In this document: positions 3,307-22,741 of the stretch, piece after piece | Position numbering within the stretch: position 1 is the stretch's first letter | How the letters are laid out: every line of letters begins with the position of its first letter | Virus record (IMG/VR): IMGVR_UViG_3300032665_000200 | Span: 1 to 22,741 of that record | Direction: 5' to 3' (one strand) | Source: a virus | Length of the DNA: 22,741 bases | Translations under genes and position numbers: made by a program | Notes under the pieces: model-generated | What the model was told of the DNA's origin: nothing | The model's database searches: none | The model's input: only the letters and a program-made list of their open reading frames with translations

Positions 3307-3969
3307 ATGGAAGCCTTTGTTTATTCGTGGTCAGACCACAAAACTGCTAAGATTTATGTCGGCGTTCACAAAGGAAACGTCGAAGATGGGTATGTCTGTT
3401 CTTCTAAGTCTATGATGGTTGAACACAATAAAAGACCAGAGGATTTTACTCGTCAGATCATTGCCAAAGGCACATTAAATGATTGCGCTACATTAGAAGT
3501 TGCGATTATTAAACAATTGCTCAAAGACAAAAATACTTGCTATAACCGTGCCGCTGGCAAAATGATCATCAATGATGTTCCGCCTCGTTTAGGTGTGCCG
3601 CATTCAGAAGAAGCAAGAAAAAAAATAAGTCAAGCTAATGTTAATCGTAAAGTATCTGAAAAAACAAAACAACTAATGAGTATGCGCCATTCTGGCAATA
3701 AATACGCATTAGGGTCAATTCGTTCTGAAGAACATAAATTAGCAATTAGTATTGCCAATAAAAATAAAATTATATCTTTAGAAACTCGTAAAAAAATAGG
3801 TGAAAACACATCTAAAAAGCTTACGGGTAAAAAGTTAACGGCTGAGCATATTGAAAAAATGAAAAAAGCTGTTACTGGCAAACCCAAATCAAAAGAACAC
3901 GTTGAGAAAGTGCGGCGTGCGTTGATTGAATATTGGTCTAAAAAGAAAAAAGAGGCTGAAAATGCCTAG
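3307..3969 (+). CDS. GIY-YIG homing endonuclease with NUMOD3 repeats (Seg-like)
   Basis: A 220-residue free-standing homing endonuclease. The N-terminal nuclease core has a degenerate first motif (VYSW, residues 5-8, in place of GIY) and a good second motif (YVG, 17-19, followed by HKGNVEDGYV). Conserved-looking Arg49 (DFTRQII), Glu64 (ATLEVAIIKQL) and Asn80 (CYNRAAG) fit the GIY-YIG catalytic layout. From residue 96 on there are several NUMOD3-type DNA-binding repeats (GVPHSEEARKKISQAN, GSIRSEEHKLAISIANKNK, GKKLTAEHIEKMKKAVTGK). The 3' half is visibly richer in A than flanking genes, which suits recent transfer. It sits between two virion genes and its last 8 bases overlap the next gene. Its ribosome binding site is weak. 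It would nick or cut phage DNA lacking the insert and promote its own spread. Confidence 0.85.
   Translation: MEAFVYSWSDHKTAKIYVGVHKGNVEDGYVCSSKSMMVEHNKRPEDFTRQIIAKGTLNDCATLEVAIIKQLLKDKNTCYNRAAGKMIINDVPPRLGVPHSEEARKKISQANVNRKVSEKTKQLMSMRHSGNKYALGSIRSEEHKLAISIANKNKIISLETRKKIGENTSKKLTGKKLTAEHIEKMKKAVTGKPKSKEHVEKVRRALIEYWSKKKKEAENA
3951..3955 (+). promoter_or_regulatory. Ribosome binding site for the zinc-ribbon gene
   Basis: AGAGG lies six bases before the ATG at 3962, inside the end of the GIY-YIG gene. It decides the start of the following gene against the upstream in-frame start at 3926, which would add 12 basic residues read from homing-endonuclease DNA. Confidence 0.6.
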
Positions 3970-7889: not shown

Positions 7890-8891
7890 ATGTCTGGAAA
7901 CATCAAACTCGCAGCACCATCAGGCGGAAGTGTCACGCTAAACGCTGTCGATACTGCAAACAACTTTGTAATGAGTGTCCCTGCGGCGGCGGGTATTCTG
8001 ATTAACGCTGACTCTGCTACGGGTGCGGCACAACTTCCTGTAGGAACGACTGCACAACGCCCTGCTAGTCCTGTTACTGGTCAATTAAGATTTAACAGCA
8101 CTAACACGGGTGCTGAGTTTTACAATGGCACAGTTTGGACTGGTCTTGGTAAATACAACGTTAATCTTTTGATTGTTGCTGGTGGTGGTGGAGCGGGTAC
8201 TAGTAATGGCGGTGGTGGCGGTGCAGGGGGCGTTTTAACTGGTCTAAATATAGTTACACCCGGAACTTCGTATGCAATTACAGTTGGTGCAGGTGGCGCA
8301 ACGCATACTAATGGTAATAATTCATTAGTTTCTGGAATAGCAACAGCAATTGGTGGTGGATATGGAGGTCAACCATCAACTTACAATGGTGGATCAGGAG
8401 GTTCTGGGGGCGGATCTGGAACAGATGGGGTTACAACTGGTTCTGGAGGAGCTGGAACTAGTGGTCAAGGGTTTGCAGGCGGCTCTAACGCATCTGGTAC
8501 TACTTCACCTTATCCGGGTGGTGGTGGTGGCGGTGCGGGTGCAGTAGGCGCAAACAGTTCTAGTGGAAGCGGTGGTGCTGGCGGCAACGGGGTTATTAAC
8601 ACAATTGCAGGATCATCAACATATTATGGAGGCGGTGGCGGTGGTTACGGTAGTGGCCCTGCTGCGGGAGGTTTAGGCGGAGGCGGTGCGGGTAACGGAA
8701 CTGCTGGAACTGCAAATACAGGCGGCGGTGGTGGTGGAAATGGCGGCGCAGGCGGATCAGGGGTTGTTATTATTGCTTACGCAAGCACTGCACAAATTGG
8801 TACAGGCGGTACGGTTACTTCATATACTAATGCTGTTGGCGCAACTGTCTGGGTACACACTTTCACGAGTTCTGGCACATTTACAGCATAA
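7890..8891 (+). CDS. Glycine-rich tail fibre A
   Basis: A 333-residue fibre. Residues 1-83 are the N-terminal and stalk module shared with the preceding gene (SGNIKLAAPSGG ... NAVDTANNF ... LPVGTTAQRPASP). From residue 90 a glycine-rich domain begins (VNLLIVAGGGGAGTSNGGGG) with many G-G and G-G-G-G runs, GTSGQGFAGGS, and AGSSTYYGGGGGG, ending GGSGVVIIAY ... VHTFTSSGTFTA. The core pattern V-V/I-A-G-G-G-G matches the phage glycine-rich domain family (I believe Pfam Gly_rich_2). In Salmonella phage S16 gp38 a glycine-rich fold of packed polyglycine II helices displays receptor-binding loops; a similar role is inferred here. The gene is followed at once by an HNH endonuclease. Confidence 0.85.
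   Translation: MSGNIKLAAPSGGSVTLNAVDTANNFVMSVPAAAGILINADSATGAAQLPVGTTAQRPASPVTGQLRFNSTNTGAEFYNGTVWTGLGKYNVNLLIVAGGGGAGTSNGGGGGAGGVLTGLNIVTPGTSYAITVGAGGATHTNGNNSLVSGIATAIGGGYGGQPSTYNGGSGGSGGGSGTDGVTTGSGGAGTSGQGFAGGSNASGTTSPYPGGGGGGAGAVGANSSSGSGGAGGNGVINTIAGSSTYYGGGGGGYGSGPAAGGLGGGGAGNGTAGTANTGGGGGGNGGAGGSGVVIIAYASTAQIGTGGTVTSYTNAVGATVWVHTFTSSGTFTA
8034..8138 (+). repeat. Fibre stalk module, copy 4
   Basis: Encodes LPVGTTAQRPASPVTGQ then LRFNSTNTGAEFYNGTVW at residues 49-83 of fibre A, 35 codons like copies 2 and 3. Confidence 0.7.
8751..8888 (+). repeat. Glycine-rich fibre C-terminal module, copy A
   Basis: Encodes GGSGVVIIAY ... TGGTVTSY ... VHTFTSSGTFTA. It is the more diverged of three C-terminal copies, carrying about six extra residues before H-T-F-T-S-S-G-T. 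Confidence 0.65.
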
Positions 8892-8900
8892 GGAAAAAAC

Positions 8901-9404
8901 ATGACTGCCAAAAACGAAACTTTTGACATGGATATTGAGTTAGCTCATAGCCTGTTTGAGTATCGTGACGGTGCTTTGTACTGGAAATCTGACGTTGCTC
9001 GCAATGTGAAGGCTGGTGATCGTGTTGCCAAAAATAGTAATGCGCCACGTTTGCGTGTTTGTTATGACGGGAAATACCATACGCTTCACCGCATTATTTT
9101 TGCCATGAATCACGGCTATTACCCTGAAGTTGTTGACCACATCAACGGGGATGGGCGTGACAATCGGATTGAAAATTTACGGTCGGCTGATATGCGAACT
9201 AATGCCCAAAACCGTAAGCGACATACAAAAAACGCTAGCGGCGCAAAGAATGTTGGATTTAAGTCTGCACGAAACAGATGGCGTGTCACGATTACAAGAA
9301 ATGATGGTACGACTATGGATAAGCTGTTTAAACATTTTGACATTGCCTGTACGATTGCTGAGTTGGCTCGGCTGAAGTACCACGGCGAATTTGCACGAGC
9401 ATAG
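8901..9404 (+). CDS. HNH homing endonuclease with AP2-like domain (HNH-1)
   Basis: A 167-residue protein. The HNH core runs from His63 (LHRIIFAMNHGYYPEVVDHI) through Asp79-His80-Ile81-Asn82, N-G-D-G-R-D-N-R-I-E-N-L-R and Asn101/Asn104, the HNH_3 arrangement. Residues 113-167 (GAKNVGFKSARNRWRVTI ... FKHFDIACTIAELARLKYHG) are an AP2-like DNA-binding domain ending in the typical H-G-E-F-A. This architecture is standard for free-standing phage homing endonucleases. AAGGAAAAAAC precedes the start. It separates fibres A and B, and a related gene separates the 122-residue gene from fibre C. It would cut an unoccupied allele of its insertion site, probably in a neighbouring fibre gene, so that repair copies it and flanking sequence. 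Confidence 0.9.
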   Translation: MTAKNETFDMDIELAHSLFEYRDGALYWKSDVARNVKAGDRVAKNSNAPRLRVCYDGKYHTLHRIIFAMNHGYYPEVVDHINGDGRDNRIENLRSADMRTNAQNRKRHTKNASGAKNVGFKSARNRWRVTITRNDGTTMDKLFKHFDIACTIAELARLKYHGEFARA

Positions 9405-9413
9405 GAGAAATAT

Positions 9414-10355
9414 ATGACCGCTTTCGTCGGAGGAAGTACAGGGTTCGGCCCTCCATCATGGACAACGGCAGGTAGACCATCTTCACCCGTGAACGGGCAG
9501 ATGGGATGGAATACGACGCTTGGTCAATTAGAATGCTGGACAGGCTCACAATGGCAACAGATTACTTCGTTGTTGTACAGCATTAGCTATTTGGTTGTAG
9601 CGGGTGGTGGAGGTGGTGGTTCTGGTGCTGGCGGTGGAGCAGGAGGATTTTTAACTGGAACAACTGCTATTTCTGCAGGAATTGCATATGCGATTACCAT
9701 TGGTGCAGGTGGTACTGGGGGTCAAACAAACGTAAGCAGAGGTACAAACGGAGGTAATTCTTCTTTTAGTACTATTGCCACATCTTTAGGGGGCGGTGGC
9801 GGGGGGTCATTTAACACCTATGCTGTAGGATCATCGGGTGGTTCTGGTGGCGGCGGTTCTGTGAGTTCCGGCGGTGGCGCTGCTGGCGGCTCAGGGACTT
9901 CTGGACAAGGTAATGCTGGCGGCACTGGTGGCACAGGAGGTACTGGCACTTCAGGCGGCGGCGGTGGAGCAGGAGCTGTTGGTGGTAATACAGTAATTAC
10001 GGGAGCAAACGGCGGCGTTGGACTTATATCTACAATTAGCGGAAGTTCCGTTTATTACGCTGGTGGAGGTGGTGCTGGTGGCGATACAACTATCGGCTGG
10101 GCTAATGGTTCTGGCGGGTTAGGCGGCGGTGGGAATGGGAATAGCACAGCAACACCTACAGCAGCAACAGCAAACCTAGGCGGTGGCGGTGGTGGTGCTG
10201 GGTATAATGGGTCAAACTATACCGGGGGTACAGGCGGTTCAGGTATTGTCATCATTTCTTACGCTGGCACACAGCGTGGCACGGGTGGCACAGTCACTTC
10301 ATCAGGCGGTTATACAATTCACACGTTTACAAGTTCAGGCACATATAACGCCTAA
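9414..10355 (+). CDS. Glycine-rich tail fibre B
   Basis: A 313-residue paralog of fibre A with a much reduced N-terminus: only the second half of the stalk module remains (AGRPSSPVNGQMGWNTTLG ... W-T-G-S-Q-W, residues 19-47). The glycine-rich domain then starts at SYLVVAGGGGGGSGAGGG. Internal landmarks are GTSGQGNAGGTGG, ISGSSVYYAGGGGAGG and the C-terminal 40 residues, which differ from fibre C at only two positions. AGGAG at 9403-9407 overlaps the HNH-1 stop and gives good spacing to ATG 9414. Likely a receptor-binding fibre. It contains runs of five and six G (9789-9793, 9801-9806) inside coding sequence, which may be slippage-prone. Confidence 0.85.
   Translation: MTAFVGGSTGFGPPSWTTAGRPSSPVNGQMGWNTTLGQLECWTGSQWQQITSLLYSISYLVVAGGGGGGSGAGGGAGGFLTGTTAISAGIAYAITIGAGGTGGQTNVSRGTNGGNSSFSTIATSLGGGGGGSFNTYAVGSSGGSGGGGSVSSGGGAAGGSGTSGQGNAGGTGGTGGTGTSGGGGGAGAVGGNTVITGANGGVGLISTISGSSVYYAGGGGAGGDTTIGWANGSGGLGGGGNGNSTATPTAATANLGGGGGGAGYNGSNYTGGTGGSGIVIISYAGTQRGTGGTVTSSGGYTIHTFTSSGTYNA
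9471..9554 (+). repeat. Fibre stalk module, partial copy 5
   Basis: Encodes GRPSSPVNGQMGWNTTLGQ to the closing Trp (residues 20-47 of fibre B). The first part of the module (LPVGTTAQ) is missing, so it is shortened at the N-terminal side. Confidence 0.55.
10233..10352 (+). repeat. Glycine-rich fibre C-terminal module, copy B
   Basis: Forty codons, GGSGIVIISYAGTQRGTGG through HTFTSSGTYNA. The protein is identical to bases 12108-12227 at 38 of 40 residues, while the DNA differs at many synonymous positions. Confidence 0.8.
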
Positions 10356-10373
10356 TTTTCAGGAGATTTTTAA

Positions 10374-10742
10374 ATGTCGCATTTCGCAAAAGTAGTAGAC
10401 GGCAAAGTCACTCAAGTGATCGTAGCTGAAAAAGAATTCTTCGACACGTTCGTGGACAACAGTCCCGGTCAGTGGCTGCAGACCTCATACAATACTCGTG
10501 GCAATGTTCACTACGGTGCTGACGGTAAGCCTGACGGTGGCGTAGCCCTGCGTGGTAACTATGCTGGCATCGGTTACACCTACGATGCAGTTAAAGACGT
10601 CTTCGTCGCACCCCAGCCATTCCCATCGTGGACGCTAAGTGCAAACTATTTGTGGGAAGCACCAGTAGCGATGCCTACGGATGGTAAGCCATACGCTTGG
10701 GACGAGGCTACCAAGGCTTGGAAAGAAGTAGTTGCAGCTTAA
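10374..10742 (+). CDS. Conserved small phage protein of the fibre cluster
   Basis: A 122-residue protein beginning MSHFAKVVDGKVTQVIVAEK, with SYNTRGNVHYG, RGNYAGIGYTYD and a C-terminal part rich in Trp/Pro (W-T-L, Y-L-W-E-A-P, Y-A-W-D-E-A-T-K-A-W). I recognise this as a conserved protein seen beside tail-fibre and structural genes in cyanophages and other aquatic phages, without assigned function. The regular spacing of Trp and Pro in the second half suggests small repeated beta units; similar endings occur in fibre-tip or fibre-assembly proteins. AGGAG at 10361-10365 precedes the start. It lies between fibre B and HNH-2. A fibre accessory role is an inference from position. Confidence 0.75.
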   Translation: MSHFAKVVDGKVTQVIVAEKEFFDTFVDNSPGQWLQTSYNTRGNVHYGADGKPDGGVALRGNYAGIGYTYDAVKDVFVAPQPFPSWTLSANYLWEAPVAMPTDGKPYAWDEATKAWKEVVAA

Positions 10743-10744
10743 TT

Positions 10745-11266
10745 ATGCCAGCTAAACCTAAACCTTTGCCGAGCATGGAAACCTTGAATTCATTATTTGA
10801 GTTCAAGGATGGCGTGCTTTACAACAAGCCTGACAGATCGTATCCGGCAAAGGCTGGTCAGCCTGTTGGTTATGAAATTGCTGGGTATCAATTTGTTGAC
10901 ATCAAACGGCAAAAGTATGCCGTTCATCGTATTGCGTTTTATATGCACCACGGTTGGGTTCCAGATCAAATCGATCATATTAACGGCAACGGGCTTGACA
11001 ATCGTATTGATAATTTACGTCCTGCGACTGATGCACAAAACGCTTACAACAGGGCAACAAGCAAGACCAACACTAGCGGGCATAAAGGCATCGTAGAGTA
11101 CAAAGGCAAAAAAGCAAGTAGCTGGATTGCGCAAATTTGGTATGGCGGTAAATACAAACACCTTGGCTCGTTCTCATCAAAAGAACTAGCTGTTGATTTT
11201 TTAGAATTAGCTCGTGATCTAACTCACGGCGAATATGCCAATCACGGCACTTTTAGGAGTATTTGA
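10745..11266 (+). CDS. HNH homing endonuclease with AP2-like domain (HNH-2)
   Basis: A 173-residue relative of HNH-1. The HNH core comprises His61-Arg62 (AVHRIAFYMHHGWVPDQIDH), D-H-I-N at 77-80, N-G-L-D-N-R-I-D-N-L-R and Asn99/Asn102. The AP2-like part has H-K-G-I-V-E-Y, W-I-A-Q-I-W-Y-G-G-K-Y-K-H-L-G-S-F and H-G-E-Y-A. The ATG at 10745, two bases after the previous stop, is preferred to the TTG at 10697, which lies inside the 122-residue gene. After H-G-E-Y-A, where HNH-1 practically ends, this protein runs on for eight residues (N-H-G-T-F-R-S-I) encoded by the leader of fibre C, including its ribosome binding site. Function as for HNH-1. Confidence 0.9.
   Translation: MPAKPKPLPSMETLNSLFEFKDGVLYNKPDRSYPAKAGQPVGYEIAGYQFVDIKRQKYAVHRIAFYMHHGWVPDQIDHINGNGLDNRIDNLRPATDAQNAYNRATSKTNTSGHKGIVEYKGKKASSWIAQIWYGGKYKHLGSFSSKELAVDFLELARDLTHGEYANHGTFRSI
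11255..11259 (+). promoter_or_regulatory. Ribosome binding site for fibre C inside HNH-2
   Basis: AGGAG lies eight bases before GTG 11268. It supports the GTG as start of fibre C over the in-frame ATG at 11235, which has no such site and would lie wholly within HNH-2. Confidence 0.6.
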
Positions 11267-11267
11267 C

Positions 11268-12230
11268 GTGGCTCTCGATATTCAAGGCACAGACTACTTA
11301 AAGCTCCCAGTCGGGACTACGGCGCAGCGTCCTTCTACGCCTGCGTCAGGTATGGTTCGCATGAACTCTACTACCAATAATCCTGAGTGGTACGACACAA
11401 CTACGTCCTCATGGCTTCAATTCTCACAACCTGCTGGATATTCGGTTAACTACCTTGTTGTTGCTGGTGGCGGTGGGGGTGGATATAACAAATCCGGTGG
11501 CGGCGGGGCGGGCGGCGTATTAGCAACAACTGTCACTTTAACCTCTGGTACTGCTTACACAATTACTGTTGGTTCTGGAGGTGCTGGCGCATCATCAAAT
11601 TCAAGCGCAGGAACAAGTGGAGCAAACTCATCAATTTCAACTATCGCAACAGCAACTGGCGGTGGTGGCGGTGGAACATACAACGGTAGCGCAACGTATG
11701 AAAACGGATTAAGTGGTGGCAGCGGCGGCGGTGGAGCAGGCGGAGATTACAGTCCTGCAGGAACCGGAGGCTCTGGAACTTCAGGTCAAGGTTATTCGGG
11801 AGGTTCTGGCTATTACCAAAGTGGCGGTGGATCAGGTGGTGGCGGTGGTGGAGCTAGTGCCGTAGGTCAAAATGCGGCTAGCAATAATGGTGGGAATGGC
11901 GGAAATGGTGTTTCATCATCTATTTCTGGAACGTCTACATATTATGGTGGCGGTGGTGGCGGTGCTAACTTTAACGGTGGTACGAGCGGAACAAACGGCA
12001 CAGGAGGATCAGGTGGTGGTGGTTCGGCTACAAATACCACTGGTAATTCTGGAACTGCTAATACCGGTGGTGGTGGCGGTGCTGGTTACACTGGAGGTGG
12101 CGGTGCAGGTGGCTCAGGCATCGTAATCATAAGCTACCTCGGCAGTCAGCGTGGCACAGGCGGTACGGTTACTTCAAGCGGCGGATACACCATTCACACA
12201 TTCACTTCATCTGGAACGTATAACGCATGA
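11268..12230 (+). CDS. Glycine-rich tail fibre C
   Basis: A 320-residue fibre with a GTG start, one base after the HNH-2 stop. A very short N-terminus (MALDIQGTDYLK) leads into a stalk module (LPVGTTAQRPSTPASG ... S-S-W, residues 13-49). Then comes the glycine-rich domain (VNYLVVAGGGGGGYNKSGGG), GTSGQGYSGGS, ISGTSTYYGGGGGG and a C-terminus nearly identical to fibre B. Fibres A, B and C keep the same order of landmarks and differ mainly in the stretches between glycine runs, where receptor-contact loops would be expected. The in-frame ATG at 11235 could add 11 residues, but the AGGAG site favours GTG. The last codons overlap the next ATG (ATGA). Confidence 0.85.
   Translation: MALDIQGTDYLKLPVGTTAQRPSTPASGMVRMNSTTNNPEWYDTTTSSWLQFSQPAGYSVNYLVVAGGGGGGYNKSGGGGAGGVLATTVTLTSGTAYTITVGSGGAGASSNSSAGTSGANSSISTIATATGGGGGGTYNGSATYENGLSGGSGGGGAGGDYSPAGTGGSGTSGQGYSGGSGYYQSGGGSGGGGGGASAVGQNAASNNGGNGGNGVSSSISGTSTYYGGGGGGANFNGGTSGTNGTGGSGGGGSATNTTGNSGTANTGGGGGAGYTGGGGAGGSGIVIISYLGSQRGTGGTVTSSGGYTIHTFTSSGTYNA
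11304..11414 (+). repeat. Fibre stalk module, copy 6
   Basis: Encodes LPVGTTAQRPSTPASG through the closing Trp (37 codons) in fibre C. It shares a 21-base tract (19 matches) with copy 3 at 7785-7805. Confidence 0.7.
12108..12227 (+). repeat. Glycine-rich fibre C-terminal module, copy C
   Basis: Forty codons ending fibre C. It differs from copy B (10233-10352) only by Ala to Leu and Thr to Ser in the G-G-S-G-I-V-I-I-S-Y-x-G-x-Q-R region. Confidence 0.8.
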
Positions 12231-12881: not shown

Positions 12882-13115
12882 ATGGATTGGCAGCAAGTCA
12901 TCAATCTTGGCGCTGGTGCGGCGCTTGGCGTCATAGGATGGTTTGCTCGCCAACTTTGGGAAGCCGTCCAAAAGCTCAAAGAGGATGTCTCTGGACTTGA
13001 GCTTCATGTTGCTGAAAACTACGTCAAAAAAGTAGACATTACGGCTCGGTTTGATCGTATTGAAATGCTTCTTGACAAGTTGTACGACAAGCTCGATCAA
13101 AAGGCGGACAGATAA
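12882..13115 (+). CDS. Small membrane protein with coiled coil, lysis cassette
   Basis: A 77-residue protein. Residues about 6-23 form one hydrophobic, Gly/Ala-rich helix (VINLGAGAALGVIGWFARQL). The rest is a charged amphipathic helix (A-V-Q-K-L-K-E-D-V-S-G-L-E-L-H-V ... FDRIEMLLDKLYDKLDQKAD) likely to form a coiled coil. AAGGGG at 12870-12875 precedes the start, and the stop overlaps the holin start (TAATG). The topology is compatible with an inner-membrane spanin-like or accessory holin protein. No partner lipoprotein gene was found, so the spanin idea is unsupported. Its position immediately before the holin makes a lysis-related role reasonable. Confidence 0.75.
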   Translation: MDWQQVINLGAGAALGVIGWFARQLWEAVQKLKEDVSGLELHVAENYVKKVDITARFDRIEMLLDKLYDKLDQKADR

Positions 13116-13516
13116 TGGATCCAATTAGCGCTCTATTGAATATTGGAAACACGCTTATACAGCGTATATTTCCTGATCCTGCGCAAGCGGCTCAGGCTCA
13201 ATTAGCTTTGCTAAAGATGCAGCAGGATGGTGATTTGGCTGCAATCAGCGGTCAGATGGACATCAACAAGGTGGAAGCCGCTTCCACTTCAATATTTGTG
13301 TCTGGCTGGCGTCCATTCTGTGGATGGATCTGTGGATTTGGCTTGGGCTATGTTGCCATCCTAGAGCCTATTGCAAGGCTCGTAGCGACCCTTGTGGGCT
13401 ACTCAGGATCATTCCCCCAGATTGATACTACCCTGACGATGCAAGTCCTCCTAGGTATGCTTGGTATGGGCGGATTACGTTCTCTAGATAAAGCCAAAGG
13501 CGTTGCGTCAAAATAA
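13115..13516 (+). CDS. 3TM holin (GTA_holin_3TM family)
   Basis: A 133-residue protein matching the holin family with up to three membrane segments known from gene transfer agents and many proteobacterial phages. An N-terminal amphipathic part is rich in Ala/Gln (FPDPAQAAQAQLALLKMQQD), followed by the family signature S-G-W-R-P-F (residues 63-68). Hydrophobic segments lie at about 69-95 (CGWICGFGLGYVAILEPIAR) and 107-122 (LTMQVLLGMLGMGGLRSLDK), and the C-terminus is basic. It would collect in the inner membrane and open holes for the endolysin encoded two genes later. Start and stop both overlap neighbours (TAATG at each end), indicating a coupled lysis operon. Confidence 0.85.
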   Translation: MDPISALLNIGNTLIQRIFPDPAQAAQAQLALLKMQQDGDLAAISGQMDINKVEAASTSIFVSGWRPFCGWICGFGLGYVAILEPIARLVATLVGYSGSFPQIDTTLTMQVLLGMLGMGGLRSLDKAKGVASK

Positions 13517-14172
13517 TGGTTACTGCTAAAAAATCCGCAGTTAAAAAGACGGTGAGGCGAACTACAAGACGACCACCACCTAAAGAAGACTTTACTGACA
13601 AGGTCGTTGATTTAATTAAATGGATTGACAGTCCGTTTAAGTTAATCACGGTGGTGCTGATTTCGTTTATTGCTTTTGCTGGTTATTTCGCTTGGGATTC
13701 CCGACAGGTCATTTTGGGTGCGATTGCAGCCAAGAAAACCGAAATGAAAGAAGTACCGGCAATTGAGGCAATATCCAAAAATTTATTGTATGACCTAAGC
13801 GCAGATGTGGTCGTGGTTAATGCTGTAAACCTGCAGGCAAATAGCCGAAGCACATTGTTGGTGCTGAGCAATCAGGGTAGAGATAAAGCCTTGGAGGGGT
13901 CAATCAACGCATTATTTACTAGCGTTCCCGAGCATAACAAATCCGTCATTACAATGTTTCAGGGTGAAGTTTCCTGTGAACCATTTATTCCAGCATCAAA
14001 ACTTGGGGATTTTGCCATCAAGCACGGTGTGACATATATGTGCAGAGGTTCTGTTCCGCCAGAAATGGGACGGTTTGTAGGCTATATCGCTGTTGGCTTC
14101 GCAGTCCAACCCAAAGATGTAGCGCAAGTCAAAGCTCGGATTAACCTTGCAAGTACGGAGATGGCTAAGTGA
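13516..14172 (+). CDS. Membrane-anchored protein with predicted periplasmic domain, lysis cassette
   Basis: A 218-residue protein. Residues 1-24 are very basic (MVTAKKSAVKKTVRRTTRRP), and one hydrophobic helix lies at 41-60 (FKLITVVLISFIAFAGYFAW). By the positive-inside rule the remaining 155 residues would be periplasmic. That part looks alpha/beta: several beta-like runs (DVVVVNAVNLQAN, STLLVLSNQ, FVGYIAVGFAVQ) and two Cys (V-S-C-E-P-F and Y-M-C-R-G) that could form a disulfide. I do not recognise the family. It is encoded between holin and endolysin with overlapping codons on both sides, so a role in lysis timing or envelope disruption is plausible. It lacks the long coiled coil of a typical inner-membrane spanin. 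Confidence 0.75.
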   Translation: MVTAKKSAVKKTVRRTTRRPPPKEDFTDKVVDLIKWIDSPFKLITVVLISFIAFAGYFAWDSRQVILGAIAAKKTEMKEVPAIEAISKNLLYDLSADVVVVNAVNLQANSRSTLLVLSNQGRDKALEGSINALFTSVPEHNKSVITMFQGEVSCEPFIPASKLGDFAIKHGVTYMCRGSVPPEMGRFVGYIAVGFAVQPKDVAQVKARINLASTEMAK

Positions 14173-14789
14173 TAACTAAAAACCTTTTGGTTGACAGCGG
14201 CACTTGCTCAGACGCAATGGCGGATATGTGGCTGGATGCATTGAATGCAACTTGCGAAAAGTACGAAATCAACACCCCAGAGCGGGTAGCTGGTTTTTTG
14301 TCCCAAGCTGCCCACGAGTCTGGTGGATTCAAGTTTGTGGCGGAAAACCTAAATTATTCCGCACCTGCCCTGCGCTCCATCTTTGGTAAGTATTTTCCTG
14401 ACGATTCAGTAGCAAATGCCTACGCCCGTAATCCAGAAAAGATAGCAAATAGAATATATGCAAACAGGATGGGCAATGGTGACGAAGCTTCTGGGGAAGG
14501 TTTTAAGTACCGTGGTCGAGGGCTTATTCAACTCACGGGCAAGGATAATTATGTTGCATTTGGTAACGCTACTGGGGTGGACGCTGTTAATAATCCTGCT
14601 CTTGTTGAACATCCTGAAGCGGCGGCTCTATCTGCTGGCTGGTTTTGGAGTACTCGCCACCTTAATAATTATGCTGATGTAAAAGACGTGGTTGGCATGA
14701 CAAAACGAGTAAACGGCGGTACAAACGGCTTGGATGATCGCCAAATGCGTTATGCCAAGATCATGGACTATTTTAATGCACAGGGGTAA
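14169..14789 (+). CDS. Endolysin, glycoside hydrolase family 19 (chitinase-like lysozyme)
   Basis: A 206-residue single-domain GH19 enzyme that would cleave the glycan strands of peptidoglycan. Key motifs are AAHESGGF with catalytic Glu50, AENLNYSA with the second candidate acid Glu59, then A-N-R-I-Y-A-N-R-M-G-N-G-D. The substrate-groove signature YRGRGLIQLTGKDNY spans residues 114-128, and RVNGGTNGLDDR lies near the C-terminus. No signal peptide, SAR helix or separate wall-binding domain is present, so release depends on the holin. The GTG start overlaps the upstream stop (GTGA), with GGAG at 14157-14160; no better in-frame ATG exists nearby. Length is normal for single-domain phage GH19 lysins of Gram-negative hosts. 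Confidence 0.93.
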   Translation: MITKNLLVDSGTCSDAMADMWLDALNATCEKYEINTPERVAGFLSQAAHESGGFKFVAENLNYSAPALRSIFGKYFPDDSVANAYARNPEKIANRIYANRMGNGDEASGEGFKYRGRGLIQLTGKDNYVAFGNATGVDAVNNPALVEHPEAAALSAGWFWSTRHLNNYADVKDVVGMTKRVNGGTNGLDDRQMRYAKIMDYFNAQG

Positions 14790-20370: not shown

Positions 20371-21630
20371 ATGGCTGGCGTCGGACTTAGCTCAACTTAC
20401 ACAACACCCGCTGATATCGGTACTGCAGGGTCAACCAGTAGCGGATCCCTAACACAGGGTGCAGCACTGCCCAATATTACTACGACGCAACAGCAGGCAA
20501 CTGCAGCGCCTAGTTGGTACACGGATTATCTCCAAAATATTGCTCAGCAGGGTGCACAGGCCGCGCAGAATGCTCAGTTTGTGGGTATTCAGCCGATGCA
20601 GCAGCAGGCGTATAACCTCGCTCAGTCTAACGTCGGTAATTACCAACCTACGCTGAATACAGCTACCGGCGCTTTAGGCTCATCAATTAACGCTACCTCG
20701 CCGTTAAGCGCTGCGCAGCCTTACCTCAGTTCTGCCGCTAATCCGACCTACAACACCGTCAACCAATATATGAATCCTTACGTCAATGACGTGGTTTCGC
20801 AGATTGGTAATCTGGCTGAACAGAATGTAATGAACAACGTCGCTCCGCAAACGACCGCGGGGCTAGTGGGTACGGGTCAATTCGGTTCACAGCGCGGCGC
20901 TCAGGCATTGGCATCAAACTTAGGTCAATATGGCCAACAGACTACTGCCCTACAAGCCAATGCGCTGAACACTGGGTATCAAAATGCCATGACCGAAGCG
21001 CAAGCCCAAGCTGTGTTGCAGGGTCAGTTAGGTCAAACAGCAGGCTCGTTGGCGTCACAAGGTCAACAGAACTTAGCCAATGCTGCGCAAATAGGCGGTC
21101 AGTTAGCCACTACAACTCAGAATTTAGGCTTAGGTGATGTCAATGCCCTAGATACGCTTGGCACGCAACAGCAGCAGATTTTGCAAGCCCAGCAGCTATT
21201 TCCGCTGCAGATGGCTCAAGCTGAAGCTGGATTGCTCCAAGGCGCTCAGATTCCTACTTCTGTATCGTCTACCTATACAGGCCCAATACCGGGTGCTTAC
21301 CAGAATTCGCCGTTGTCTCAAATTGCTACGCTCGGCAGTACGATCGGTGCAATAAGCAACACGCCGTTCGGTCAGGCGATTGGGAATGCTGTAGGTAGTT
21401 ATTTTGGATCAAATACAACCCCAACATTTAACAGTCTAGATCCTTACAATACGACGACAGCTGGTCAAACTACTGCAGATTCGATGCTAAATAATCCGTC
21501 CACGTTGTTTACCAATACATCTGGATTGTCTCCTTCAAATGCAAGCTATTTAACAAATAACGGCTTTGGTTCTGGGTTAAATTTAAATAACATACCGGCT
21601 TCACCTTCTTATATTGGTGTTGGCGACTAA
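20371..21630 (+). CDS. Gln/Ala-rich candidate internal virion (DNA ejection) protein
   Basis: A 419-residue protein whose central 250 residues are Gln/Ala/Asn-rich helices: A-P-S-W-Y-T-D-Y-L-Q-N-I-A-Q-Q-G-A-Q, QPMQQQAYNLAQSNVG, AEQNVMNNVAPQTTAGLVGT, QFGSQRGAQALASNLGQYGQ and QQQQILQAQQLFPLQMAQAE. A mildly hydrophobic Gly-rich segment lies near 315-350 (IATLGSTIGAISNTPFGQAI). This composition and its place between two other large genes after the nozzle match ejection proteins of podoviruses, which leave the capsid and form a channel through the envelope. The run W-Y-T-D-Y-L then Q-P-M-Q-Q-Q-A-Y is a pattern I associate with these proteins. AAGGAAA precedes the start, and the gene is intact. Confidence 0.75.
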   Translation: MAGVGLSSTYTTPADIGTAGSTSSGSLTQGAALPNITTTQQQATAAPSWYTDYLQNIAQQGAQAAQNAQFVGIQPMQQQAYNLAQSNVGNYQPTLNTATGALGSSINATSPLSAAQPYLSSAANPTYNTVNQYMNPYVNDVVSQIGNLAEQNVMNNVAPQTTAGLVGTGQFGSQRGAQALASNLGQYGQQTTALQANALNTGYQNAMTEAQAQAVLQGQLGQTAGSLASQGQQNLANAAQIGGQLATTTQNLGLGDVNALDTLGTQQQQILQAQQLFPLQMAQAEAGLLQGAQIPTSVSSTYTGPIPGAYQNSPLSQIATLGSTIGAISNTPFGQAIGNAVGSYFGSNTTPTFNSLDPYNTTTAGQTTADSMLNNPSTLFTNTSGLSPSNASYLTNNGFGSGLNLNNIPASPSYIGVGD

Positions 21631-21640
21631 GGAATAAATT

Positions 21641-22741
21641 ATGGCAACTGGCGCACTTCCTACAGCACCTACAATGATCGGCACCGATCCGGATGCTCAG
21701 AAAGAATACTTTGATGCCTTAAACCAGGCTTTAAAAGCTCTTGAAGGACGACAAGAAACGAACTGGTGGAACGTAGCTGCTGGTTTTGCTAAGCCTACTC
21801 GATCAGGGTCTTTTGGGGAATCCCTTGGTAATGTTGCTGAGACTCTAGGCAAACAGCAAGAAGAGCAAGAAGCACGTGCTCCTGCCATTGCTCAGATGCG
21901 TGCTGCATTGGCTGGTCAGAAATTTCAAACCGCCCAAGAAGTCGGCGCTCAGAACATATTACTCAACGCTTTAGGCGGTCAGAACCTAGGCGAAGTAGCC
22001 CAGCAATTCGCGACTCCCGAAGGCGCTATCGCAGACCCTTCGTTAGTTATGAGATTAGCTCGTGCGCAGCAGCTCACCCCGCCGGGTACTAGGGCGGCTG
22101 AGCAGTTGAAAGGGTTGATTGACACGCAGATGAAAATGCTAGACTTCGGTATCAAGTCTAACACCCTCACTAACGACCAAATAAAAACCTACAACGAAGG
22201 GCTAAAGACGCAGTTTCAAACGGGTATTACTCCTATTTTACCCAACGTGGGCGGTCGTCAGCCGCAACCCGCTACGGCTGCGCAAGCCCCCGCGGTTGGG
22301 CAACCCGCTACAAACACCACGCAGGTCGCTGCGCCCAACACCATAGTACCACGGGAAGCAGTGGTCAACGCGCTTACTAATATGTATGACCTGAAGTCAG
22401 ACCAGCTTTCCTCCAGCCGCTCTCGTGAAGAACAGCAGGCTCTTTATGACCGTTGGAAAGCGGGCGATAAGAGCGTCTTCACGCCCGTTAATCCTGCGGA
22501 TTACCCAGACCAAAAGGTGTTCCACGCTAACGCCTTAGATGTCCCTCGCGCTGTACCCGAGAAATTCATGAACTCGCTGGGCTGGTACCGTCCTAATCCG
22601 GAGAAAGATCCCGTTCACTACGAGCCTATGAAGCCGGGGGCGGTTTCTGGCGCGGTGGAGAATAAACCCTCCGCATTAGTGCCTGAGTCGGCGCAAAAAG
22701 ACATACTGGCTCAAAAAGAATTTGAGCGTCAGCAATTAGAA
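21641..22741 (+). CDS. Large candidate internal virion protein with M15 peptidase-like region (partial, 3' end outside)
   Basis: The open frame runs from ATG 21641 (AAGGAATAAATT upstream) to the window edge, 367 residues, no stop. It begins MATGALPTAPTMIGTDPDAQ. Residues about 20-185 are charged and Gln-rich helices (coiled-coil like). About 190-235 form a Pro/Gln/Ala linker. Residues 257-328 resemble peptidase M15 / D-Ala-D-Ala carboxypeptidases (VanY-like): S-S-S-R-S-R-E-E-Q-Q-A-L-Y-D, then H295-A-N-A-L-D300, then G-W and DPVHYE with His326. These would be the zinc ligands of a peptidoglycan-trimming enzyme carried in the virion. The His-to-Asp spacing (five) is shorter than the usual seven, so activity is uncertain. 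The last residues return to a Gln/Glu-rich helix. Confidence 0.75.
   Translation, partial: MATGALPTAPTMIGTDPDAQKEYFDALNQALKALEGRQETNWWNVAAGFAKPTRSGSFGESLGNVAETLGKQQEEQEARAPAIAQMRAALAGQKFQTAQEVGAQNILLNALGGQNLGEVAQQFATPEGAIADPSLVMRLARAQQLTPPGTRAAEQLKGLIDTQMKMLDFGIKSNTLTNDQIKTYNEGLKTQFQTGITPILPNVGGRQPQPATAAQAPAVGQPATNTTQVAAPNTIVPREAVVNALTNMYDLKSDQLSSSRSREEQQALYDRWKAGDKSVFTPVNPADYPDQKVFHANALDVPRAVPEKFMNSLGWYRPNPEKDPVHYEPMKPGAVSGAVENKPSALVPESAQKDILAQKEFERQQLE

Follow-up and report, generated by a model that had tools for sequence, protein, structure and literature searches.

The last gene of the contig and its layout

The stretch of DNA analysed here, a contig of 22,741 bp from the IMG/VR record of an uncultured phage, will be called the window. 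At its end lies the gene of a candidate ejection or inner-virion protein, which is cut by the contig end after 367 of 578 amino acids (Table 1). The remainder of the gene, whose retrieval the preliminary description had recommended, is supplied by two near-identical IMG/VR contigs (L003:6001-7737; L002), where the complete gene encodes 578 aa and is followed by a stop and then by a further gene of 451-455 aa. Matches of the whole protein to Ribosomal_S16 (0.19) and TPR (0.29) were taken as chance, and scans for promoters and terminators gave results at chance level.

Table 1. Positions in the window of the last gene, its upstream neighbour, and the regions and residues of the encoded protein.
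Feature	Position	Strand	Basis or remark
Directly upstream gene, 419 aa, VGTGQFGSQRGAQ family	20371..21630	+	Anchor of ortholog survey
Candidate ejection/inner-virion protein gene	21641..22741	+	ORF, 367 of 578 aa, cut at contig end
N-terminal helical region, residues 1-194	21641..22222	+	AlphaFold2 model; first ~90 residues conserved among orthologs
Pro/Ala-rich linker, residues 195-233	22223..22339	+	Low pLDDT in model
Short-form M15-like peptidase domain, residues 234-333	22340..22639	+	Profiles, alignment, model
R260, S-x-x-R-[ST] element, counterpart of LysECD7 R41	22418..22420	+	Alignment and LysECD7 comparison
H295, proposed first metal ligand (HxxAxD)	22523..22525	+	Invariant in alignment A8
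D300, proposed second metal ligand	22538..22540	+	Invariant in alignment A8
D323, proposed catalytic Asp of DPVH, counterpart of LysECD7 D114	22607..22609	+	Alignment and LysECD7 comparison
H326, proposed third metal ligand, counterpart of LysECD7 H117	22616..22618	+	Alignment and LysECD7 comparison
Second linker, residues 334-348	22640..22684	+	Model

Several other parts of the window were noted. At 12882-14789, two small ORFs are joined by a third that may be membrane-anchored and by an endolysin of phrog_181 in what appears to be a lysis cassette; the endolysin gene, at 14169-14789, matches that family at 5.9e-85 and is separate from the last gene. Within the region 7890-12230, three long tandem ORFs (7890-8891, 9414-10355 and 11235-12230) have similar glycine-rich C-terminal halves, and the small ORFs between them, at 8901-9404 and 10697-11266, look by eye like HNH-type homing endonucleases. 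An ORF between structural genes, at 3307-3969, resembles by eye a GIY-YIG/NUMOD homing endonuclease.

The preliminary description proposed that a peptidase of the M15 (VanY-like) type is embedded between helical regions of the last protein, and the models bear out this arrangement. The full-length model has helices over residues 1-194, a low-confidence linker at 195-230, a compact domain at about 236-332 (pLDDT 82-91), a further linker at 335-347 and then helices over 349-577. The peptidase-like region is thus, as modelled, an autonomous domain of residues ~234-333, flanked by two linkers and two helical regions. When the helical body was compared with the PDB, only generic helix-bundle matches were obtained. 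The gene following the upstream anchor was collected from 80 loci. This yielded a set of 50 non-redundant orthologs, of which three are truncated at the end of their contigs. The orthologs conserve the N-terminal stretch and the C-terminal helical part and vary in the middle, which we refer to as the slot.

Relationship of the slot domain to M15 peptidases

The window domain matched no Pfam model, and thus none for VanY or M15 at the curated cut-off. Direct sequence searches of the PDB, whether with this domain or with the profile of the short-form domains alone, likewise found no M15 chain. Matches to the PDB obtained via alignment A5 were discounted as independent evidence, as that alignment includes rows of standard-type M15 domains. 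A link is provided by ortholog L064, whose slot domain is called VanY by Pfam above the cut-off (4.2e-9). The short-form profile reaches this slot domain at 1.5e-10 (Z=50; 50-protein set). A search with the L064 domain in turn recovers the full-length ortholog of the window protein at 7.5e-8, the match spanning residues 237-338. Comparison by hhalign of the short-form domains with four standard-type M15 domains gave a probability of 98.5, against 0.1 for a control alignment. Among phage protein families, phrog_2649 ("endolysin") was matched by all 10 members of the short-form alignment A1 (best 9.1e-10); the annotated endolysin of Microbacterium phage Honk (gp19) belongs to this family.

The predicted structure points in the same direction. 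Modelled in isolation by AlphaFold2, the domain reached a mean pLDDT of 85. All 14 entries listed in its structure comparison are M15 peptidases (Z 3.3-5.0, rmsd about 4), including VanYB, LdcB, DacB, VanXY, LysECD7 and ChiX; Z values this small can be incidental, and the weight of the result lies in its uniformity and in the coverage of residues 10-114. The best match, with Z 5.0 and rmsd 4.0 over 98 residues, indicates an M15 fold with moderate strength. A Foldseek search of the PDB with the domain gave nothing significant by E-value, the top entry being LdcB at 0.28, and the second structural aligner only re-ranked Foldseek's own PDB candidates. Among viral structures, the top matches with informative names were mostly M15 peptidases, peptidases and endolysins, led by "Peptidase M15B", "putative peptidase" and endolysins.

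The likeness to M15 could also be convergent or coincidental, in a domain of a different fold and with another role, and the lack of any Pfam or PDB sequence match for the domain alone would suit such an explanation. However, the transitive profile link leads to an ortholog domain that Pfam calls VanY and that occupies the same position in the protein, and the structural neighbours listed for a confident model are all M15; with these two results we regard coincidence as largely refuted and most improbable. The preliminary description had named the absence of an M15 hit as a ground for refutation. Sequence answers this only by half: the profile search that it suggested failed in Pfam for the window domain itself, but M15 is reached through the transitive profile link and through the fold. 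We conclude that the domain is a divergent short-form relative of the M15 peptidases that probably works as they do; because the SxHxxGxAxD motif is absent and the Pfam cut-off was not reached, we do not file it as a standard member.

Proposed active-site residues and the short-form family

The three motifs on which the preliminary description was built lie in M15 order at 22409-22624 (residues 257-328), exactly where it had placed them, and read S-S-S-R260-S-R-E-E-Q-Q-A-L-Y, F-H295-A-N-A-L-D300 and D323-P-V-H326-Y-E. The ordered set occurred in none of 20,000 shuffles of the protein. In the M15 endolysin LysECD7, zinc is bound by H62, D69 and H117, and R41 and D114 also belong to the active centre (PMC11267749). 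All five of these active-centre residues have counterparts in the window domain in the same order, as R260, H295, D300, D323 and H326. Its sequence holds the candidate metal ligands H, D and H in their proper order (H295, D300, H326), together with a D/E-x-x-H element (D323-P-V-H326) and an upstream Arg (R260). D323, three residues before the last His, and R260 are, as the alignment has it, also part of the signature, which extends it beyond the earlier account.

The domain departs from the standard type in the SxHxxGxAxD motif, where His and Asp are 7 apart. Both the window and every short-form relative lack this motif; the window has F-H-A-N-A-L-D, with a spacing of 5. The preliminary description was thus correct that the His-Asp spacing is two residues under the usual, as a comparison with H62 and D69 of LysECD7 also shows. 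When aligned by hhalign, H295 falls two columns away from the standard M15 His, which implies either a loop shortened by two residues or a His that has moved to a new site. In the model, DSSP assigns D300 (model residue 76) to a short strand, and a second strand begins at H326 (model residue 102); both positions fit an M15-type sheet. No publication on the contracted motif was found in the open-access literature.

When viral contigs were searched with the domain, 13 loci were obtained at first, then 21 and finally 49, a set in which many entries repeat the same contigs. A profile built from 29 relatives, with the window left out, detected the window at an E-value of 2.9e-38, against 0.2 for the best among 2,000 shuffles; none of the other reading frames of the window scored meaningfully with it. 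Across 30 non-redundant members, whose identity to the window goes down to about 27%, the columns Q, G, P, H, D, G and D-P-V-H are invariant and the Arg of the S-x-x-R element nearly so. The H-to-D spacing is 5 in all 30, a count that would be biased by the HxxAxD contained in one of the two search patterns used for the 49 loci; many members (e.g. FHTDAVDI, WFHENAVDI) do not fit this pattern and must therefore have been reached by the other. Because the short spacing is conserved among relatives, it characterises a subfamily and is no sign of decay.

The preliminary description had left two options for the short spacing, an inactive domain or a divergent metal site. We favour the divergent site, because none of H295, D300, D323 and H326 varies among 30 diverse relatives; the invariance of H295 in particular argues for a working site. 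Under the first option, a two-residue deletion would have destroyed the metal site, leaving a peptidoglycan-binding or structural module that anchors the injected protein in the wall. Every member seen has indeed lost two residues between H and D, the G of the standard motif is absent in many, and a few (L140, L153 and L159) also lack the Arg. Yet a domain that only binds would have no need of the four invariant residues, and the other cassettes found in the slot come from catalytic families. A dead domain is accordingly unlikely in our estimation.

The short-form domain occurs in at least four settings, one of which is the slot of the candidate ejection protein. In phage proteins of about 580-1,030 aa it lies close to the N-terminus, and in proteins of 565-580 aa with a tape-measure-like region (sub-threshold TMP_N; phrog_7694) close to the C-terminus. 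A fourth location is the interior of a 597-aa protein. A scan of bacterial genomes with the domain of one relative, informative on close relatives only, found none.

An exchangeable slot and the proposed role of its peptidase

Different orthologs carry different enzymes in the slot. The short M15-like domain is present in six of the 50 (L032, L036, L042, L044, L045, L091) and a standard M15 domain in two, L064 and L111, the latter labelled on its standard motif and a match to L064 (2.6e-15), with a sub-threshold Pfam score (0.041). Peptidase_M23 occupies the slot in eight orthologs, SLT in two, and other transglycosylase-type domains in a further two: L040, which matches phrog_873 (endolysin, 5e-26), phrog_7182 (tail injection transglycosylase) and a tape-measure family, and L065, which matches phrog_4067 (transglycosylase, 6e-5). 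L092 and L099, with slots that look transglycosylase-like by eye, were kept out of this tally. The remaining orthologs, more than half of the 50, have no recognised hydrolase in the slot, and a slot hydrolase is thus not essential in them. In a tree of the domains, the slot copies of the short form group with one another and away from those of the standard type, a split that is weakly supported (82/16); it is likely, as far as these sequences tell, that a slot M15-type domain was acquired more than once. The ortholog in MW202545 has no domain in the slot, and its next gene has an SLT-type domain. Overall, the protein gives the impression of a carrier in which unrelated wall cutters can be exchanged.

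Based upon these data, we propose, with a probability of roughly 80%, that the last gene encodes a mostly helical, probably ejected virion protein containing a divergent, shortened M15-like (LAS-type) zinc-peptidase cassette that cuts the wall at entry. The protein is helical, lies beside structural genes, takes several unrelated hydrolases in its slot and has a separate endolysin in the same genome; these features are best explained if it is ejected or sits inside the virion and carries the wall-opening cassette as an accessory. Its relatives carry peptidoglycan-degrading domains (M23, SLT, VanY and transglycosylase-type), as would be expected of an ejection protein; we infer this identity from the gene position, the helical body and the PHROG matches of orthologs. 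The protein, presumed to be present in the virion and used at entry, would be delivered into the host envelope at infection, where the domain would cut the peptide stems of the host peptidoglycan and allow passage of the DNA. The domain is predicted to bind metal and act as a catalyst, with H295, D300 and H326 holding the metal, D323 in the role of general base and the substrate polarised by R260.

A second endolysin, acting from inside at lysis, would be in keeping with the best PHROG match, which is to an endolysin family. But the separate endolysin gene makes this domain a poor candidate for the lysis enzyme; it is, moreover, fused between helical regions of a protein adjoining structural genes, and ortholog L040 matches families of tail injection transglycosylases and tape measures. 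We judge a role at lysis very unlikely and prefer one at entry.

The kind of peptide bond cutter can be narrowed somewhat. The preliminary description spoke of a carboxypeptidase, which is probably the wrong activity. An endopeptidase seems likelier, because the D-x-x-H element resembles that of the endopeptidase LysECD7 and because a mesh has to be cut. The M15B carboxypeptidases VanYB (5zhf), LdcB/DacB (4oxd, 4nt9) and VanXY do give the highest structural Z (5.0-4.5), and the L064 slot domain shares the VanY call with them; unlike them, the window domain is only ~100 aa, has DxxH, and lacks both SxHxxGxAxD and a VanY match. With the M15C endopeptidases and phage endolysins LysECD7 (PDB 8q2g) and ChiX (5opz) it shares the modelled fold (Z 3.5 and 3.3), and with LysECD7 the order R...H...D...D-x-x-H (PMC11267749). 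It differs from both in its H-D spacing of 5 in place of 7, and in being embedded in a helical protein of ~580 aa and not a free endolysin. The phrog_2649 endolysins, whose profile the short-form members match, are likewise free, with a longer and different H-D region.

Lytic transglycosylases occur in ejection or internal virion proteins, such as T7 gp16. The proposed local opening of the wall at DNA entry is similar, and orthologs of the window gene carry SLT/transglycosylase-type domains in the slot; the window, however, has a peptidase in place of a glycan-cleaving enzyme, and the likeness seen is one of proposed role. Mycobacteriophage tape measure proteins offer another parallel, as small exchangeable wall-hydrolase motifs of several kinds lie within a structural protein, and motif 3 of the TM4 tape measure is non-essential and aids DNA injection into stationary cells (PMC1796659). 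The TM4 system differs in being the tape measure of a long-tailed phage, in its enzyme families, and in having been tested experimentally.

Of greater interest among these findings is the interchangeable slot. A broader proposal, to which we would give even odds, is that the short-form domains are an unnamed M15-like subfamily, active with a contracted HxxAxD and largely confined to phage virion proteins, and that in this phage lineage they are one of several unrelated wall hydrolases swapping in and out of one fixed ejection-protein slot, which would record adaptation to different host walls. The window would offer a testable case of a phage that opens the wall at entry by a peptidase instead of a transglycosylase, and about 20 natural hydrolase cassettes in one scaffold make it possible to ask which wall chemistry selects which enzyme. 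Current family models miss the contracted metal motif, and such domains are therefore under-annotated.

Some further observations concern the ortholog loci. The gene after the candidate ejection protein starts with an NNPG domain in one locus (L109:8544-9968) and has an SLT-like N-terminus (1e-4) in another (L036:8899-10461); the wall enzyme can accordingly be housed by either of the two adjacent genes. The orthologs of the two upstream genes in MW202545 (L031:2758-5919) are extremely cysteine-rich, with runs such as CCSCCCSCCC, and one of them is annotated "coronavirus S2 glycoprotein", which is probably spurious; no such richness is seen in the candidate ejection ortholog of MW202545 or in the gene after it.
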